The position numbers and the translations under genes were made by a program. 64,000 bases of DNA from Gelidibacter algens (lineage in GTDB: Bacteria > Bacteroidota > Bacteroidia > Flavobacteriales > Flavobacteriaceae), in the NCBI RefSeq assembly GCF_001678675.1, contig NZ_LZRN01000007.1, forward strand, positions 62,001 to 126,000. The letters are read 5' to 3'. Of this stretch, positions 23,765 through 32,281 are shown one piece after another; the first letter of the stretch is position 1, and every line of letters starts with the position of its first letter. The notes beneath the pieces were generated by a model. The model was not told the origin of the DNA. It did not search any database and saw only the letters and a program-made list of their open reading frames with translations.

Positions 23765-23828
23765 GAAAATAGAAAATAGAAAATAGAAAATAGAAAATAG
23801 AAAATAGAAAATAGAAAATAGAAAATAG
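23765..23828. repeat. Heptanucleotide tandem repeat, unit GAAAATA
   Basis: About nine perfect copies of the 7-bp unit GAAAATA head to tail. It lies between the dinB stop and the promoter of the HupE-like gene. It is outside any gene I accept. Confidence 0.9.
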
Positions 23829-23864
23829 TAAACGGAAAACAGAAATTTGTAGGTTCGACTTTTC

Positions 23865-23934
23865 GACTGAAGACTGAAGACTGAAGACTGAAGACTGAAG
23901 ACTGAGGACTGGAGACTGGAGACTGAAAACTAAG
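23865..23934. repeat. Heptanucleotide tandem repeat, unit GACTGAA
   Basis: About ten copies of a 7-bp unit: five perfect GACTGAA, then variants GACTGAG, GACTGGA and a degenerate end. It abuts and touches the stop codon of dinB. It shares period 7, but not sequence, with the GAAAATA array 36 bases away. Confidence 0.9.
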
Positions 23935-25147
23935 CTTTCCGATGCGGCAACAGCGGTGGCGGTTCACCATTAAATGGATTCCATCTGCCAATGGTTCGGG
24001 CTTCCATTCCTGCAGCGCTAATAACCGACCTATCGCCATAGCGTTCGCGCATCTTATCAATAGCTTCGCTCAAATGAAGAAACTTCGTATCGTCATCAAA
24101 CAAATTGACCTGATGGCCGCCTTCTACCAAATGGCTGAATTTAACGCCAATCAGGCGTACTAAAAGACGTCGGTTGTAAAGTTTTTCAAACAAGTCCAAA
24201 ACTATGGGAATGATATTGTGATCCATAGCGCTATACGGAATACGCTGCTGTTGGGTATAGGTCTGAAAATCAGAATAGCGAATTTTAAAGGTGATGCACG
24301 CCGTTAATTTATTGCCACGACGTAATTGGTACGCCAAATTTTCAGCCATGGCGATGATGATGCCTTTTAATTTTGCGACATCTGTAGTGTCTTTATTAAA
24401 AGTGCGTTCTGTAGAAATCGATTTGCGCTCTTGGTATTGAATAACTGGCGAATTATCAATGCCATTCGCTTTGTTCCAAATGCCCAAACCATTTTTGCCT
24501 AATACTTTATACATCAATTCCATCGGCATTTCCTGTACGGTCCTGATTTGTTTGATACCCAAATCACATAAGGATTTGTAGGTCACATCGCCTACCATTG
24601 GGATTTTTTTAATTGATAAAGGTGCCAAAAATGGTTTTTCATTGCCTGAGAGGATCTGGATTTCGTTATTGGGTTTTGCTTCCCCAGTGGCGATTTTGGA
24701 TACCGTTTTGTTGAGCGATAAACCAAAGGAAATTGGTAATCCAGTTTCTCTGATGATGCGCTGGCGCAACTCAGAGGCTAATTTATGGCACCCGAAAAAC
24801 TTGTCCATCCCCGTCAAATCAATATAGAATTCATCAATAGACGACTTTTCATACAACGGAACCGTGTCTTTAATAACATCGGTTACGTTTTGCGAGAATT
24901 TAGTGTAGGTACCTGCATCCCCTCGGAGAATGATGGCCTCAGGGCACAATTGTTTGGCCATGCGCATAGGCATTGCAGAGTGGATTCCAAATTTCCGTGC
25001 TTCATAGCTACAGGAGGCTACAACACCTCTGTCACTCGTGCCGCCTATAAGAACGGGTTTCCCGTTTAGGCGACTGTCGAGCAGGCGTTCACAGGACACA
25101 AAAAAGGTATCTAAATCCATGTGCACTATGGAGCGTTGGTAGGTCAT
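23930..25147 (-). CDS. dinB: Y-family DNA polymerase IV
   Basis: 405 residues. The palm motifs are clear: HMDLDTFFVSCERL near the N-terminus (metal-binding Asp) and SSIDEFYIDLTGMD (the acidic pair) about 100 residues on. Helix-hairpin-helix elements and a little-finger domain follow. It carries out translesion synthesis without proofreading. It lies in the same direction as, and 1 kb downstream of, the DnaE-type polymerase gene, separated from it by a toxin-antitoxin pair. The stop codon sits at the edge of the heptad repeats. No beta-clamp peptide stands out in the C-terminus (LLPHRKA). Confidence 0.95.
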   Translation of the reverse strand: MTYQRSIVHMDLDTFFVSCERLLDSRLNGKPVLIGGTSDRGVVASCSYEARKFGIHSAMPMRMAKQLCPEAIILRGDAGTYTKFSQNVTDVIKDTVPLYEKSSIDEFYIDLTGMDKFFGCHKLASELRQRIIRETGLPISFGLSLNKTVSKIATGEAKPNNEIQILSGNEKPFLAPLSIKKIPMVGDVTYKSLCDLGIKQIRTVQEMPMELMYKVLGKNGLGIWNKANGIDNSPVIQYQERKSISTERTFNKDTTDVAKLKGIIIAMAENLAYQLRRGNKLTACITFKIRYSDFQTYTQQQRIPYSAMDHNIIPIVLDLFEKLYNRRLLVRLIGVKFSHLVEGGHQVNLFDDDTKFLHLSEAIDKMRERYGDRSVISAAGMEARTIGRWNPFNGEPPPLLPHRKA

Positions 25148-25309
25148 GATAAAAGATGAATTAAGAGTAAAGATTAGAGAATAAGCACTTGTTCAACTCC
25201 TTAATAAATGACGTGATTTTTATAATAATTAAATTTTGGGAACAAATTTCAGTTATACATTTTTTTAAAAACGTAAACTTCTCTGTTTTAAAGTAACAAC
25301 CTCTTTTTA

Positions 25310-25732
25310 TTAACTGTTAGGTTTTCCTTTTAAATAGCTTTCAGGGGTCATTATGGCTAATGTGCTTTTTTTGAAATCCTTTAAGTTTCTTGTTAAAATG
25401 ACATTAATATTTTCTTTTCCGAGAGCGGAAAAATTCTGTAGAGCATCTTCAAAATCTTTGAATTGAGAGTTGAGTGCGTTTAAAACAATAGTCTTATCCA
25501 TTTCTGCAATGTCAATAATGGTTAAAAGTTGTTTTAATTTTTCAATGATGAGCTCGTGTTTTCCGATTTTCCTCAATAAATGATACACATTCGATATTGC
25601 TACTGGTGTTACAAATCCTTTTATTTTCTGTTCTTCACATAAGTTTAAAACTTGTGCGGCATATTCAGAATAGGGCTCGCGGTCAAAGAAAAAATCCAAT
25701 ATCACGTCGGTGTCTATAAGTACATGGTCCAT
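25310..25732 (-). CDS. PIN-domain toxin (VapC-like)
   Basis: 140 residues. The acidic PIN-domain residues are visible: Asp7 and Asp9 in IDTDVILDF, a Glu near residue 40 (NLCEEQ), Asp in FKDFEDALQ, and the later NVILTRNLKDF. PIN toxins are Mg-dependent ribonucleases. The gene starts one base after the antitoxin stop, the standard antitoxin-toxin layout. All expected acidic residues seem intact, so it should be active. It splits dinB from dnaE. Confidence 0.88.
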   Translation of the reverse strand: MDHVLIDTDVILDFFFDREPYSEYAAQVLNLCEEQKIKGFVTPVAISNVYHLLRKIGKHELIIEKLKQLLTIIDIAEMDKTIVLNALNSQFKDFEDALQNFSALGKENINVILTRNLKDFKKSTLAIMTPESYLKGKPNS

Positions 25733-25733
25733 T

Positions 25734-25985
25734 TCAAAAATATTTTTCTTCCAATCGTTTCTCCAATTCCTTTTTGTAGTCGAGTTTTTTAGAGGTCTTA
25801 AAAGAGCCTTTTAAGGATTTTACAATAGGATTGAGAGGTTGATCGCTTTGTTTCCTTTCTTCTATAGTTAATATTTTGAGGTAATTTTCAATAATATCAG
25901 ACAGACTACGGTTTTTCTGTTTCGCATATCGTTTTGCCTTCTCTATGACTTCCTTTTCGATTGTCAATGTTAGTTTTGTGTTCAT
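25734..25985 (-). CDS. Antitoxin of the PIN toxin (DUF6364-like)
   Basis: 83 residues. The N-terminus (NTKLTLTIEKEVIEKAKRYA) looks like a ribbon-helix-helix DNA-binding unit. The C-terminal half is charged and would wrap the toxin (KTSKKLDYKKELEKRLEEKY). Such proteins neutralise the toxin and repress their own operon. A palindrome just upstream is a candidate operator. Confidence 0.85.
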   Translation of the reverse strand: MNTKLTLTIEKEVIEKAKRYAKQKNRSLSDIIENYLKILTIEERKQSDQPLNPIVKSLKGSFKTSKKLDYKKELEKRLEEKYF

Positions 25986-26001
25986 AATCTGTTGTTTTTT
26001 A

Positions 26002-26035
26002 CAAAGATAATAAAAAATTAAAGCACGTGTTTTAA
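26002..26035 (-). promoter_or_regulatory. Promoter -7 box and palindromic operator candidate of the toxin-antitoxin operon
   Basis: On the minus strand TATCTTTG (26009-26002) matches the TAnnTTTG box, 17 bases before the antitoxin ATG. Just upstream, 26018-26035 is an imperfect palindrome centred on CACGTG with TTAAA/TTTAA arms. It covers the spacer and -33 region, where an autorepressor would bind. No clear TTG is found. Confidence 0.5.
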
Positions 26036-26100
26036 TTCTAAAATTAATACGTATCGTTTTTTGATTGCTGATATTGATGATCAGTATTGATCGCTTCTTT

Positions 26101-29100
26101 TTATATAGTTGTTTGAATAGATTGTGTTTTTGATTTCGATGTAATTTTTGGGATTATACCGCCGCCAAACCTCTCTTCGTTAGCTACTGCAGTATGGGGA
26201 TTAGAGTATGGGCTTGCGCTATACCGCGGATCTTCAATAACTGACAACCGTTCCATACGTTCTACTTCAATGGTGACACAATCAAATTCAATCATCACTT
26301 TACCTGTAATACTATAGATGCCTTTACCTCTAAACGGAAATCTAGCTGCCACAGGAGGGAAATGGACCGTATCAACAAAATCGCCATCACGATCCAAAAA
26401 ATTTACCAAAATGCATGATTTTGTCCATTGGACGTTCTGGTGTTTTTTGTGGTGATGAGGTAGCCTTCAATTGTAATCATTTTTCCTTCCAAAGATTCCA
26501 AATGTTTGGCACGTAACTGATTTACTGAATGGTTTTCCAGCAGATGAAACGGATTGCACAGCGGGAAGCCCAACAATTCAATTTCATCAAAGGCATTTTC
26601 CAAAGCTGTACTTGGCAATTCTGGTGTTTTATAATGCACGCGTTCGGTTTTAAAGAGCGTGATGACATGTTCTTGCACCGCGTGTTTGCTGATTTTAAGA
26701 TGGGCTTCCCAGAGCAATTCACGTTTGTTGCTGCCTGTAAATCGAAATGCATTGATTTTTATCAAAATCGAAATCTGTTCTATGGAAATGGGAACCCGTT
26801 CAATAAAATTATCCATGCTCAAAAAGGAACCATTTTCATTCCGTTCTTTTACGATGCGTTTAATGGTTTTTGATTCGAAGGATTGCAAAAACATGAATCC
26901 GAGATAAATTGTTTTGCCATGAATGACCGTTTGTGTAAAACTACGGTTGATGCAAGGCGCTTCAATGATGCCGCCATGCATTCTGGCTTCATGGACATAC
27001 AATTCAGTACTATAAAATCCGCCAAAATTATTAATAGTGGCCACCATGTATTCCAGTGGGAAATACGCTTTCAAAAATAGACTCTGATAACTTTCCACTG
27101 CATAGGACGCGGAATGTCCTTTGGCAAATGCATAACCAGCAAAACTTTCAATCTGTCGCCAAATATCTTCCACTAGCGCATCTGGTTTTCCAGAATTTTT
27201 ACAATTGTCAAAAAACTGTTGCTTCACTTTCATAAATTCATCACGCGATCGGAATTTTCCTGACATCCCACGCCGCAACATATCGGCTTCTCCAAGTGTG
27301 AGTCCGCCAAAATAATGTGCCACCTTAATTACATCTTCCTGATATACCATAACGCCAAAGGTTTCTGGCATAATGTCGAGTAACACTTTGGGCGCATTCT
27401 TAACACGTTCCGGATCGCGATACCTCAAAATATATTCACGCATCATTCCGCTTTTGGCAACTCCAGGGCGAATGACGGAACTTGCCGCCACCAAGCCCAA
27501 ATAATTATCTACCTGTAATTTTTTCATAAGCATTCGCATTGCGGGCGATTCCACATAAAAACACCCGATGGCTTTGGCGTTTCTCAATAAATTTTTGATG
27601 CGCCCATCTTCCTTGAAACGCTTGATGTCGTGGATGTCGATGGGAGACTTTTCAGGATGGTTATAAGCAACAATTTCTGTGGCCTCTTTAATTTTCCCGA
27701 GTCCGCGTTGGCTTAAAATATCAAATTTATACAATCCGATATCTTCTGCGACAACCATATCAAACTGCGTGGTAGCATAGCCTTTTGGCGGCATAAAGGT
27801 GGCGCCATAATAATGGATGGGCTTTTCTGAAATCAGAATTCCGCCAGCATGAATGCCTAAATAATTAGGAAATCCTTGAATATAGGTACTGTATTTAATG
27901 ACGAGTTGGGATAATTGATCCAATTGATTAACGTTGTATTTGCCCCTGGTAAGCATGTCCATTTCCGATTTTGGCAAACCAAACACTTTCCCCAATTCAC
28001 GAACAGAGGCTTTAAATTTAAACGTATTATAAACCGCAATCAAAGCCGTGTTTTTGAACCTCGTAAAGATAAAATTGGTAATATCATCACGATCTCTCCA
28101 TGAGAAATCGAGGTCAAAATCGGGTGGGTTTTGTCTAAAAACATTGATAAAACGCTCAAAGTATAAATCGAGTTCTATAGGATCCACATCCGTAATTCGA
28201 AGCAAATAGGCCACAATGCTATTGGCACCACTGCCACGACCTACATAGAAATAGTTTTTACTGCGTGCGTATTTCAAAATCTTCCAATTGATTAAAAAGT
28301 AGGACACAAAATCCTTTTGTTCAATGATAGATAGTTCTTTTTCGATACGTGAAAAAACGCGCTCGTCAGGATTTTTGTAGCGGTAATGCAATCCGTCATA
28401 GGTGAGTTTTTTTAACAATCTAAAATCCAAAGCCTCATTGTGGGTGTAGCAACGTTGGTTGTTTGGGTTTTCTTGAGAAAAATCAAAATCTACATGGCAT
28501 TTGTCGAGGATGTGAGCTGTGTTATTTAGGAGTTCAGGAAATTCGTCATAGGTAGTGCACAATTCCTGATAAGGCAACATTTTGTCGGTTTCCTGGCCTT
28601 GTTCACTTTTAGGCAGTTTGCTCAACAGGGTATTGTTGTCGATGGCGCGTAATAGGCGGTGGGTGTTAAAATCTTTTTTGTTCTGAAATGATACGGTTTG
28701 CAAAACGACCAATTTGTTCCGCAGTAAATTCCATTTAGAGAATTTGAGATGGTTCAAATCCTGTGGCTTAATACCCAAAAATTCGTTTTCTTTTAGAGCA
28801 TATATTTTTTTATGAATGTAGGGATAAATCACAAATACATCTTCGAGTTGGGGGGCGGTTTCAGGGATTTTCAATTCAGAGTCATGTAAAAATCCAGAGA
28901 GGTAATCGTTGATGTTCTGAAACCCCTTATTGTTTTTGGCAATGAGGATGAATTGCTGTTGCGCACCATTTCTGAAATCGATACCCAAAACAGGTTTGAT
29001 TTTATATTTTGAGGATAATCGTGCAAAATCCAAACACGCTGAAGTGCTGTTGATATCAGTCAATGCCAAAGTCTGTAAGCCATTTTCTGAAGCAATGGCA

Positions 29101-29165
29101 AGCAGTTGCTCAGGCTTTATAGTGCCGTAGCGAAGACTGTAGTAGGTGTGGCAGTTGAGGTACAT
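26101..29165 (-). CDS. DnaE-type DNA polymerase III alpha subunit, short form, C-terminus split by frameshifts
   Basis: The main frame (29165-26403, 920 residues) covers the PHP domain, polymerase core (PPDFDLDF around 349-353, LYKFDILSQRGLG), fingers and beta-binding region. It stops within the C-terminal OB domain after TSNGQ. A second frame (to 26101) continues the same domain (NFLDRDGDFVDTVHFPP). Removing one A from the run at GGACAAAATC and one T from the following T6 run restores a single 1020-residue protein reading GQIMHFGKFLDRDG. The PHP start reads CHTYYS rather than the usual HxH, so exonuclease activity of that domain is doubtful. Its length is well below the ~1150-1450 residues of replicative DnaE, and it neighbours dinB and a LexA-like repressor. 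A role in damage-induced synthesis is therefore likely, but the replicative function is not excluded. Confidence 0.85.
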
Positions 29166-29193
29166 ATTTTTGTTTACTAATGATTTTTCAAAA

Positions 29194-29214
29194 TTAACTA
29201 TTATATGTAGTTAA
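29194..29214. promoter_or_regulatory. Palindromic operator candidate between dnaE and the LexA-like gene
   Basis: TTAACTA-N7-TAGTTAA, a perfect 7-bp inverted repeat. It lies between two outward TAnnTTTG boxes: TAATTTTG on the minus strand (29196-29189) for dnaE and TATATTTG on the plus strand (29222-29229) for the repressor. A second pair of arms, TTTACTA (29173) and TAGTAAA (29230), has almost the same centre. It is well placed for one repressor to shut both promoters. Confidence 0.6.
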
Positions 29215-29370
29215 CCTTGCTTATATTTGTAGTAAATTAAGAAAAGGAATTGAGATCGCTTCGCTTTTAGAATCGAGAACTAAGATTTTTTGTTGCTACA
29301 TTCATGGTTTGGGCATTGATTAATAACACTTTTAAAAACTTACTCGCACATTCATTGCAAAAAAAATAAC

Positions 29371-30141
29371 ATGAAAAATATCCAAATAAACATAAAACAT
29401 CTCCGCTCAATAAAGCAGCTCTCCCAAGAGCGTTTTGCAGATGAATTGGGCTGGTCGCGTTCCATCGTTGGGTCTTATGAAGAGGGGCGTTCAGAGCCAC
29501 CCATCGACCGACTGATCGATTTGTCGGACTACTTTAAAATACCGATTGATATTTTGGTAAAGAATGATTTGCGCAAAGCCAAAGACACCTCTTTTATTGA
29601 TATTGGCAGCAAACGTGTGCTGTTCCCGATAACCGTAAGTGAAGATAATGAAGATCTGATTGAAATTATCCCTGCGAAAGCCTCGGCCGGGTATCTGGCA
29701 GGCTATGATGATCCTGAGTATATTGAGCAGCTGCAAAAAATCAAGCTGCCCTTTCTTCCCACAGGAACCCATCGTGCTTTTCCTATCAAAGGCGATTCCA
29801 TGTTGCCTGTAAAAGATGGCGCATTTGTGGTGGCTAAGTATGTTGAGGAGGTTCAAGATGTAAAAAATGGACGCACCTATATTGTGCTGACCAAAGATGA
29901 TGGTCTGGTTTATAAAAGAGTCTCTAATTTGATAGAAGACAAACAGACGTTACTGTTGAGTAGCGATAATAAGGCATATCAACCTTATGAGATTCCGATT
30001 GAAAATGTGTTGGAGCTTTGGGAATTTACCTGCTGCATCAACACTCAGGAATATGATGAAAAAGAACTGAAGATGAGCAGTATCATGGCGATGTTCCAAG
30101 AACTAAAGGTGGAATTGGAAGCAGTTCAAAAAATGGCATAA
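29371..30141 (+). CDS. XRE-family repressor with self-cleaving S24 (LexA-like) peptidase domain
   Basis: 256 residues. The N-terminal helix-turn-helix (about 10-65, LSQERFADELGWSRSIVGSYEEG) is of the Cro/C1 type. The C-terminal S24 domain has the catalytic Ser144 (IKGDSMLPVKDG) and Lys183 (GLVYKRV), 39 residues apart. A cleavage site Ala107-Gly108 lies in ASAGYLAG at LexA-like distance. This predicts RecA-stimulated autocleavage after DNA damage. It overlaps the next gene by one base and is divergent from dnaE across a palindrome, so it probably represses both itself and dnaE. A phage-type repressor origin is possible, but no phage genes surround it. Confidence 0.92.
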   Translation: MKNIQINIKHLRSIKQLSQERFADELGWSRSIVGSYEEGRSEPPIDRLIDLSDYFKIPIDILVKNDLRKAKDTSFIDIGSKRVLFPITVSEDNEDLIEIIPAKASAGYLAGYDDPEYIEQLQKIKLPFLPTGTHRAFPIKGDSMLPVKDGAFVVAKYVEEVQDVKNGRTYIVLTKDDGLVYKRVSNLIEDKQTLLLSSDNKAYQPYEIPIENVLELWEFTCCINTQEYDEKELKMSSIMAMFQELKVELEAVQKMA

Positions 30142-31520
30142 TGGCGAAAACCAAAGTAACTTATACGATTATTGATGTGGAGACCACAGGACGTGGCAAC
30201 AAGATTACAGAAATTTCCATTTTTAAATACGATGGAGAAAAGGTTGTTGATGAATTTACATCACTTGTTAATCCGGAGGCGTTAATCCCAGATTACATTA
30301 CCGCATTGACAGGTATCGACAATGCTATGGTTGCTGATGCTCCAACTTTTGCAGAAATTTCAGAAGCTATTCTTTCTATTACTGAGGACAGTATTTTTGT
30401 GGCCCATAATGTCAATTTTGATTACAATGTCATCAGAAATGAATTCAAAGCAATTGATGCCGATTTCAGACGCCGAAAACTGTGCACAGTCCGCTTGTCT
30501 CGAACCTTGTTTCCGGGATTTCGATCTTATAGTTTAGGGAAGTTGTGCAATTCAATGGACATTAATTTAGTTGACAGGCACAGGGCGCGAGGAGATGCCG
30601 AAGCAACCGTCACACTGTTTGAAAAATTACTGGCACATGAACACTCAGAAACCGTTTTTTCTGATTTCTTGAAAAAAGGCTCTAAAGAAGCGACGCTGCC
30701 TTCAAATTTGCCAAGTGCTATTTTTGATGCCATTCCAAATGGTGCTGGTATTTATTATTTCAAAAATAAAAAAGGAAAGATCATTTATGTAGGGAAAGCA
30801 ATCAATCTGAAAAAGCGTGTTTTGGGGCATTTCTATGATAAAAAAGAGAAGGAACTGAACCTTTGCAGAGAAACTGCGCACATTGATTATGAACTTTCGG
30901 GGAGTGATCTTGTGGCGCGACTGATGGAAGATGCGGCCATTAAACATCATTTTCCCATCTACAATCAAGCGGCCAAACGTGTACCAAAACCATATGCCGT
31001 TTTTAGTTATGAAGACCGGCGCGGGATTCAGCATTTGGCATTTAATACGCTCAAAGCAACCCCCAATCCGTTACAAATATTTCATAGTATTCGTGATTGT
31101 AGGCTGTATTTGGAACAAGTGTGCGAGCAATTTGAGCTCTGCCCAAAATACTGTCATTTACAAGAAAATGTATGGACCTGTTCACATTACAAACTGAACA
31201 CTTGTAAAGGCATATGTAGGGATGAAGAAGCAATGGTTGCTTATAACGAGCGTGCAAATTTAGCTATTGATTATATGGCAAATTCCAATCAGAATATGGT
31301 GTTGAAAGAGAAAGGGCGCCATGTGGAAGAAGAAGCTTTTGTGCTTATCAAAAACGGACTGTATCTTGGCTATGGTTTTGTAGAGAAATCAGAACAGATT
31401 TTGAATCCTGATGATTTGGAAACATTTCTAATTCCGCAAAAGGAAACTACGGAAGTTCAGGGCATTTTGAGAAAACTCTTGCTACAGTCTTCAGCTGCCA
31501 AAACCTTGGAGCTTCAATAA
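30141..31520 (+). CDS. DEDD exonuclease fused to a GIY-YIG (UvrC-like) nuclease domain
   Basis: 459 residues. Residues 1-170 form a DnaQ-type 3'-5' exonuclease with all motifs: IIDVETTG (Exo I), VAHNVNFDYNVI (Exo II) and HRARGDAEAT (Exo III). A GIY-YIG module follows (about 195-275: GAGIYYFKNKKGKIIYVGKA, ending with a Glu/Asp-rich helix), then a Cys-rich stretch (CEQFELCPKYCHL, CSHYKLNTCKGICRDEE). The same fusion is annotated as a polymerase III epsilon/UvrC-like protein in other phyla. It starts on the last base of the LexA-like gene, so it should be damage-inducible. A repair or proofreading role with the neighbouring polymerases is an inference. Confidence 0.92.
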   Translation: MAKTKVTYTIIDVETTGRGNKITEISIFKYDGEKVVDEFTSLVNPEALIPDYITALTGIDNAMVADAPTFAEISEAILSITEDSIFVAHNVNFDYNVIRNEFKAIDADFRRRKLCTVRLSRTLFPGFRSYSLGKLCNSMDINLVDRHRARGDAEATVTLFEKLLAHEHSETVFSDFLKKGSKEATLPSNLPSAIFDAIPNGAGIYYFKNKKGKIIYVGKAINLKKRVLGHFYDKKEKELNLCRETAHIDYELSGSDLVARLMEDAAIKHHFPIYNQAAKRVPKPYAVFSYEDRRGIQHLAFNTLKATPNPLQIFHSIRDCRLYLEQVCEQFELCPKYCHLQENVWTCSHYKLNTCKGICRDEEAMVAYNERANLAIDYMANSNQNMVLKEKGRHVEEEAFVLIKNGLYLGYGFVEKSEQILNPDDLETFLIPQKETTEVQGILRKLLLQSSAAKTLELQ

Positions 31521-31551
31521 ATTCAAGTTTTTACATATAAAAAAAAGACAC

Positions 31552-31762
31552 TAATTTTTTTTAAGTGCTTTTTGTTTTTTACGTTATACTGAATGATCAA
31601 TCTGTCACACGATACCATTGTTGAGTCCTGTAAAAAAATGCAATATAGCCGCGTACGTTTAAGATATTGGGTGTCTCATTGTCAATCCACATCTTACATT
31701 TGTACTCCTTTCCTTTTTCCGGATCAAAAATAGTACCTCCTTCGTATTCATTATCGTCTTTA
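31552..31762 (-). pseudogene. Duplicated 3' end of the adjacent DUF2147 gene
   Basis: 211 bases nearly identical to 31792-32003, offset by about 241 bases in direct orientation. The only differences I see are single-base indels. Read on the minus strand it codes for the last part of a DUF2147 protein and continues through FFYRTQQWYRVTD to a TGA. The full-length gene instead stops at FFY because of one extra base. The fragment has no start and is not a gene by itself. The remaining intergenic bases (31521-31551 and 31763-31867) show nothing else. Confidence 0.85.
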
Positions 31763-31867
31763 GTTTTACTATAAAATAAAAAAAGCTACTTTAATTTTTT
31801 TAAGTGTCTTTTTGTTTTTTACGTTATACTGAATGATCAATCTGTCACACGATACCATTGTTGAGTC

Positions 31868-32281
31868 CTAGTAAAAAAATGCAATATAGCCGCGTACGTT
31901 TAAGATATTGGGTGTCTCATTGTCAATCCACATCTTACATTTGTACTCCTTTCCTTTTTCCGGATCAAAAATAGTACCTCCTTCGTATTCATTATCGTCT
32001 TTATCTTTGGTCAAACCTTTAGCGATAACTAAACCTTCAATAGGTTGATTGTAATCTTTGCCTGTACATTTTATGCATGGTTTACCTTTATCTTCGGGCA
32101 ACAACAATTTAACAATCTTTCCGTAGATTTCTCCATCCTTTTTATATAGTTCAACGATGGATTTGGCCTTGCCGCTTTCGTCATCAACTGTTTTCCATTG
32201 CCCAACAATACTCTGTGCTTGAACCAAGGGAATGCTTAAGAGCAATCCTAAAAATAAAAGATACGTTTTTATCGATTTCAT
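31868..32281 (-). CDS. DUF2147 exported protein, C-terminus cut by one-base insertion
   Basis: 137 residues with a signal peptide (LLFLGLLLSIPLVQAQ). The DUF2147 fold is seen in VGQWKTVDDESGKAKSIVEL, PCIKCTGKD and GGTIFDPEKGKEYKCKMW. The family usually ends with a conserved aromatic segment; here the frame stops at RGYIAFFY. The duplicated copy downstream continues as RTQQWYRV, which is evidence that this copy lost about 10 terminal residues. DUF2147 proteins are periplasmic or outer-membrane associated and of unknown function. The gene follows a beta-barrel protein after 9 bases and probably shares its transcript. Confidence 0.88.
   Translation of the reverse strand: MKSIKTYLLFLGLLLSIPLVQAQSIVGQWKTVDDESGKAKSIVELYKKDGEIYGKIVKLLLPEDKGKPCIKCTGKDYNQPIEGLVIAKGLTKDKDDNEYEGGTIFDPEKGKEYKCKMWIDNETPNILNVRGYIAFFY

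Follow-up and report, generated by a model that had tools for sequence, protein, structure and literature searches.

Homotype false duplications are described in PMC9516828 as sequence left under-collapsed as a result of read errors; gaps are there one of several signs of a false duplication, and a case is assigned to the homotype class when read depth is low or heterozygous k-mers are missing. The repeat studied here was found in Gelidibacter algens, within a window (the whole stretch of DNA that was analysed, 64,000 nucleotides long) corresponding to bases 62001-126000 of contig 7 in an assembly of 140 contigs and 4,506,948 bases. It resembles the homotype class in that a sequence stands doubled, in all probability because errors blocked merging, and in that the copies appear to differ by error and not by evolution. 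Platform-type differences, absence from relatives and other unmerged noisy overlaps were all found, but the gap was not. The cases described there come from vertebrate assemblies, mainly with long-read errors and with gaps between the copies as one sign, whereas the present repeat measures 241 bp, lies in a bacterial 454 draft and has no N between its copies, nor is there any N in the window.

Two further points of comparison are the noise of the 454 platform and the DUF2147 family. Like 454 over- and under-calls, all differences between the two copies are run-length changes in single flows of the TACG cycle. Unlike what is expected of that platform, several of them are one versus zero, and over-calls of zero-length flows are presented as improbable in Roche 454 sequencing, in contrast to Ion Torrent, in PMC3623719; one other difference is as large as 1 versus 4. 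As for the family (DUF2147, Pfam PF09917), the assembled gene scores well within it (88.5 bits, above the gathering cut-off of 27), and a relative's DUF2147 protein is matched by the outer fragment over the corresponding part. Yet the assembled gene covers positions 1-101 of the 112 in the profile, so that the last 11 are missing and the C-terminus of the domain is incomplete. A structure search for a solved DUF2147 structure returned 0 matches.

A DUF2147 gene and its repeated 3′ end

The initial annotation had described a tandem duplication of the DUF2147 3′ end. This was borne out by a period-241 array at 31556-32003 (1.9 copies, 99% matches; Tandem Repeats Finder) and by a blastn match of 240 nt at 95.4% identity between the inner copy (P) and the outer copy (D) (Table 1). 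Tandem Repeats Finder gave seven rows in the window, and this array was the sole one with a period above 20. Judging from the alignment, similarity of this extent cannot have arisen by chance. The similarity goes beyond the limits first given to the repeat, 31552-32003, as far as about 31527, and the far end of P is frayed.

In the first 195 nt of P, the copies differed by one single-base indel (position 133) and by zero substitutions. The differences beyond this point were confined to the A/T-rich terminator behind the gene. Aligning a relative's protein to the DUF2147 locus placed one TAG within the match. The outer copy runs past FFY into RTQQWYRVTD, where relatives' proteins matched it (31600-31770); the annotation was right that this copy has the ending usual in the family.

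Table 1. Features of the DUF2147 region and of the neighbouring DnaE gene. Hairpin energies were computed over 57 and 62 nt in P and D and over 80 nt in the seven relatives; they are not strictly comparable and serve as a hint only.
Feature	Position in window	Strand	Remarks
DnaE-type DNA polymerase III alpha, frame-broken	26403..29165	minus	920 aa vs relatives' ORFs of 1015-1020 aa; 2.7 kb from DUF2147
DUF2147 gene as assembled	31868..32281	minus	137-aa ORF ending ...RGYIAFFY; PF09917 match; ~10 residues short of the usual family end
Inner copy (P), repeated 3′ end and terminator	31763..32002	minus	bears the frame-breaking base; far end frayed
Outer copy (D), same 3′ stretch	31527..31761	minus	bears the usual C-terminal ending RTQQWYRVTD
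Terminator hairpin, frayed, at the far end of P beside the P/D junction	31763..31824	minus	MFE -6.5 kcal/mol (57 nt)
Terminator hairpin of outer copy D	31527..31584	minus	MFE -8.6 kcal/mol (62 nt)

The platform behind the assembly matters for what follows. The published draft of G. algens ACAM 536 was made from 454 GS-FLX/Plus reads only, with Newbler 2.8 and at 30-fold coverage. It comprises 140 contigs and 4.50 Mbp with a GC content of 37.2%, an N50 of 88 kb and an L50 of 13, and a rhodopsin gene is named as one of its features (PMC5009979). The contig number and size of the window's assembly agree with that draft, the GC content of the window is 0.37, and a rhodopsin gene was found in the window's genome. 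Summing the contigs, on the assumption that they are numbered by size, gave an N50 of 80,114 at contig 16, with contig 15 (88,125 bases) bringing the sum to 49.6% of the total; the published N50 is near but unequal to this value, and the L50 of 13 was unmatched. The window's assembly is very likely the 454/Newbler draft of PMC5009979. PacBio-like insertion noise, which the insertion bias had suggested, was dropped as an explanation because the published draft is 454 only. A literature search combining Newbler with carry-forward, incomplete extension and insertion found nothing. Incidentally, a second, weak rhodopsin-like match was noticed at C12:48031-48252 (locus L146), with two internal stops and a score under the family cut-off.

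The copies differ in the manner of 454 flow noise

In pyrosequencing, bases are read in a fixed cycle of nucleotide flows, and errors alter the length of a run, including changes between zero and one, while leaving the flow count unchanged. Homopolymer error by itself was rejected as a full explanation of the differences between P and D, because several of the extra bases sit outside homopolymers; the copies were therefore subjected to a flow test. P and D were rewritten as flow values and compared in all six cyclic orders. The choice of TACG arose from inspecting the insertions themselves, and TACG is also the 454 flow order given in PMC2872875.

In the TACG order, P and D each occupied 310 flows and aligned without a gap. 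Three hundred flows were equal and the remaining 10 differed in run length alone, eight of them by one unit, one by two and one by three, the largest difference being 1 versus 4. Nine of these 10 lay within the last 38 flows, adjoining the P/D junction. The other five orders gave 15 to 83 differences, with unequal flow totals in four of them, and three of the five were out of register from the first indel onward. With TGAC the register was lost late (310 versus 306 flows), and with TAGC the totals were equal, yet there were 15 differences of up to 7 units.

We compared this outcome with a random-indel null, in which four run-creating insertions and one run-removing deletion were placed in 100,000 trials per placement scheme; run-length changes, which are always neutral, were omitted from the simulation. 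The same flow count together with 10 differing flows or fewer was obtained in 0.54% of trials when the indels could fall anywhere and in 0.45% when they fell in the last 70 nt. The chance of flow-neutrality was 0.33 per random insertion. The differences between P and D are of the kind produced by 454 flow noise. The flow test speaks to the nature of these differences, not to the number of copies.

Relatives, contig ends and the broken DnaE gene

We searched nine genomes, namely the window's own and eight others of the same genus, the species being represented by one strain. In a whole-genome protein search, DUF2147 was single and uninterrupted in six of the eight, and two DUF2147 matches were found only in the window's genome. 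The duplication was absent from all six same-genus genomes having DUF2147 (whole-genome protein search). Unlike these six, the other two (G005 and G007) gave no DUF2147 match in DNA or protein searches.

Seven of the 16 closest-match loci carried Gelidibacter names, one of them belonging to an uncultured isolate; the six single-copy genomes account for six of these seven loci, which makes seven distinct relatives overall. In all seven, the C-terminus of the DUF2147 protein was FFYRTQKWYRVT (six loci) or FFYRTQKWYQVT (one locus) plus one residue, and the PF09917 profile was matched over positions 1-112 in six proteins and 1-110 in the seventh. A hairpin and a run of T stood behind the DUF2147 stop in all seven loci, the stem being bulged in one relative (L007). 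Beyond the hairpin, visual inspection showed the neighbouring exonuclease gene with its 3′ end.

Unmerged noisy overlaps were also present elsewhere in the assembly. We compared 68 of the 280 contig ends (2278 pairs), leaving out the end of contig 140, which read as N throughout the letters inspected. Two of the 2278 end pairs showed tip overlaps with indels that had stayed unmerged; a control on inner sequence showed none in 2278. The first joined the right end of contig 2 to the left end of contig 15 over about 30 nt (with a terminal match of 26 nt). In TACG it aligned without a gap and 5 of its 34 flows differed; this short stretch also fitted two other flow orders. The second joined the right ends of contigs 16 and 17 over about 45 nt; it was gapless in TACG up to an N, with 9 of 32 flows differing, and also fitted TAGC. 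Flow differences at these ends were sometimes of two or three units, one being 0 versus 3, and both overlaps were far shorter than 241 nt. Only TACG gave an alignment free of gaps and with small differences for the repeat and for both overlaps alike. As far as the end sequences tell, contigs 2 and 15 are probably neighbours, and so are contigs 16 and 17.

A second frame break was found in the DnaE gene (Table 1). It consists of two extra bases, which lie close to the gene end at a distance of 18 nt and flank a short inverted repeat; the relatives' ORFs continue in another frame. One of these bases was flow-neutral in either placement. The other was neutral in one placement and not in the second, its position being ambiguous because the relatives differ at the neighbouring base. 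Counting the seven changes at DUF2147 and DnaE, whose contexts were listed by hand, 7/7 were flow-neutral in TACG in the placement used and 6/7 in the alternative, and the other orders fitted at most 4/7 in the placement used.

To see how far such breaks extend, ORFs from sampled stretches of four relatives were searched for in 535,476 bases of the window's genome, the orthologs covering part of these; the largest set, that of G002, held 146 orthologs and 56,637 aa. Among 436 query-target comparisons, seven were split in the window's genome, all at DUF2147 or DnaE. The 916 comparisons between relatives gave a single split, at a divergent 115-aa ORF. At a looser filter, a divergent 115-aa ORF also appeared as a third split in the window's genome, and it was gone under a stricter one. 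The G003 query set missed the DUF2147 split, though the protein search shows both matches. A uniformly poor draft, in which many frame breaks would be expected, was rejected on the ground that splits occurred only at these two genes. Within the sampled sequence, the sequencing noise looks like a local patch in an otherwise sound draft.

The preferred reading and its alternatives

We consider it highly probable that the chromosome carries a single DUF2147 copy, of which two noisy 454 readings entered the assembly without being merged. An assembly artefact had been raised in the initial annotation on a par with a silent cassette, and it is now strongly supported by the gapless flow alignment, the match in contig number and size to a published 454/Newbler draft, the contig-end overlaps and the single copy in 6/8 genomes. 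The frame break in DnaE, 2.7 kb away, also speaks for it. The copy number of one is what we infer from the error type, the absence of the duplication from relatives, the matching platform and the other noisy overlaps. According to this scenario, the chromosome would hold one intact DUF2147 gene followed by its terminator, and 454 reads would be noisy across the A/T-rich terminator. Newbler would have failed to equate two overlapping pieces and would have set them head to tail, P being the noisy end of one piece and D the start of the other. The truncating base would be an over-call in one nucleotide flow of the inner piece, and DUF2147 is most likely not truly truncated despite the premature stop.

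Several observations weigh against an artefact. The flow differences of 1 versus 4 in the repeat and 0 versus 3 at a contig end are large for single-flow noise, there is no N between the copies, and the noisy overlaps are short, rare and compatible with other orders too. Besides, no second head-to-tail case like the repeat was seen in 324,000 scanned bases of the window's genome, and the published N50 and L50 were not matched. As over-calls of zero-length flows are described as improbable and should be out-voted at 30-fold coverage, the artefact needs thin, noisy or biased coverage at this place.

The first alternative is that 241 bp were truly duplicated in tandem in this strain a very short time ago; the copies would be essentially identical in the cell, with the differences and the stop arising as read noise. 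Identical copies read with 454 noise would give the same flow signature, and near-tandem repeats of at least 50 nt do occur elsewhere in the window's genome and in relatives. Yet none of the six same-genus genomes with DUF2147 has the duplication, the noise piles up at the P/D junction, and noisy overlaps were left unmerged elsewhere in the assembly. Moreover, the scanned stretches of the window's genome contain three further pairs with 97% identity or more, and these, unlike P and D, differ by substitutions and are ungapped. We regard such a duplication as improbable.

A related idea, to which we give very little weight, is that the DUF2147 gene is truncated and a very young real duplication keeps an intact C-terminus outside it; RecA-type recombination or slippage between the repeats could then switch the gene from one ending to the other.

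Real pseudogenisation, in which DUF2147 and DnaE would have decayed in this lineage through natural single-base insertions, seems just as doubtful. Both breaks lie within 5.5 kb, no other ortholog was split among those compared, and for one of the DnaE insertions there is a placement that is not flow-neutral. However, the changes at both loci follow the 454 cycle, as counted above, and the two proteins remain 75-81% (DUF2147) and 90-92% (DnaE) identical to those of Gelidibacter relatives.

Least credible of all is the silent cassette proposed in the initial annotation, in which D would store the intact C-terminus and recombination between direct repeats would toggle the gene between a truncated and a complete form: it has the geometry in its favour (a near-identical direct repeat of ~240 bp with an alternative coding end of the family type on D) and nothing beyond it, whereas the P/D differences fit flow miscalls and resemble read noise rather than alleles, the fragment was present in 0/6 relatives with DUF2147, each giving one match, and a similar break occurs in DnaE, where no spare fragment was seen.

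If the single-copy reading holds, the biology is ordinary, a small gene having been mis-assembled, and the value of the case is diagnostic. Near-identical copies can be checked for a 454 origin by rewriting them as flow values and seeing whether TACG is the only order in which they align without gaps. For old drafts made from 454 reads only, such a flow-space test is of use in telling real duplications or pseudogenes apart from read noise. For the draft of G. algens, 181 pseudogenes are reported (PMC5009979).

Some minor observations concern the surroundings of the repeat. The stretch at 23930-31520 of the window encodes a DinB-type polymerase IV, a PIN-domain protein, DnaE, a repressor with HTH and S24-peptidase domains, and a DEDD exonuclease with a GIY-YIG domain, a gene set which we take to be an SOS-mutagenesis-like neighbourhood. 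Behind dinB lie two heptanucleotide arrays, GAAAATA x 11.6 (23765-23845) and GACTGAA x 9.6 (23865-23931), the latter overlapping the 3′ end of dinB by 2 bases. The start of contig 19 also has repeats of short units, some of which look to be 7 bases long, with weak matches in other stretches.
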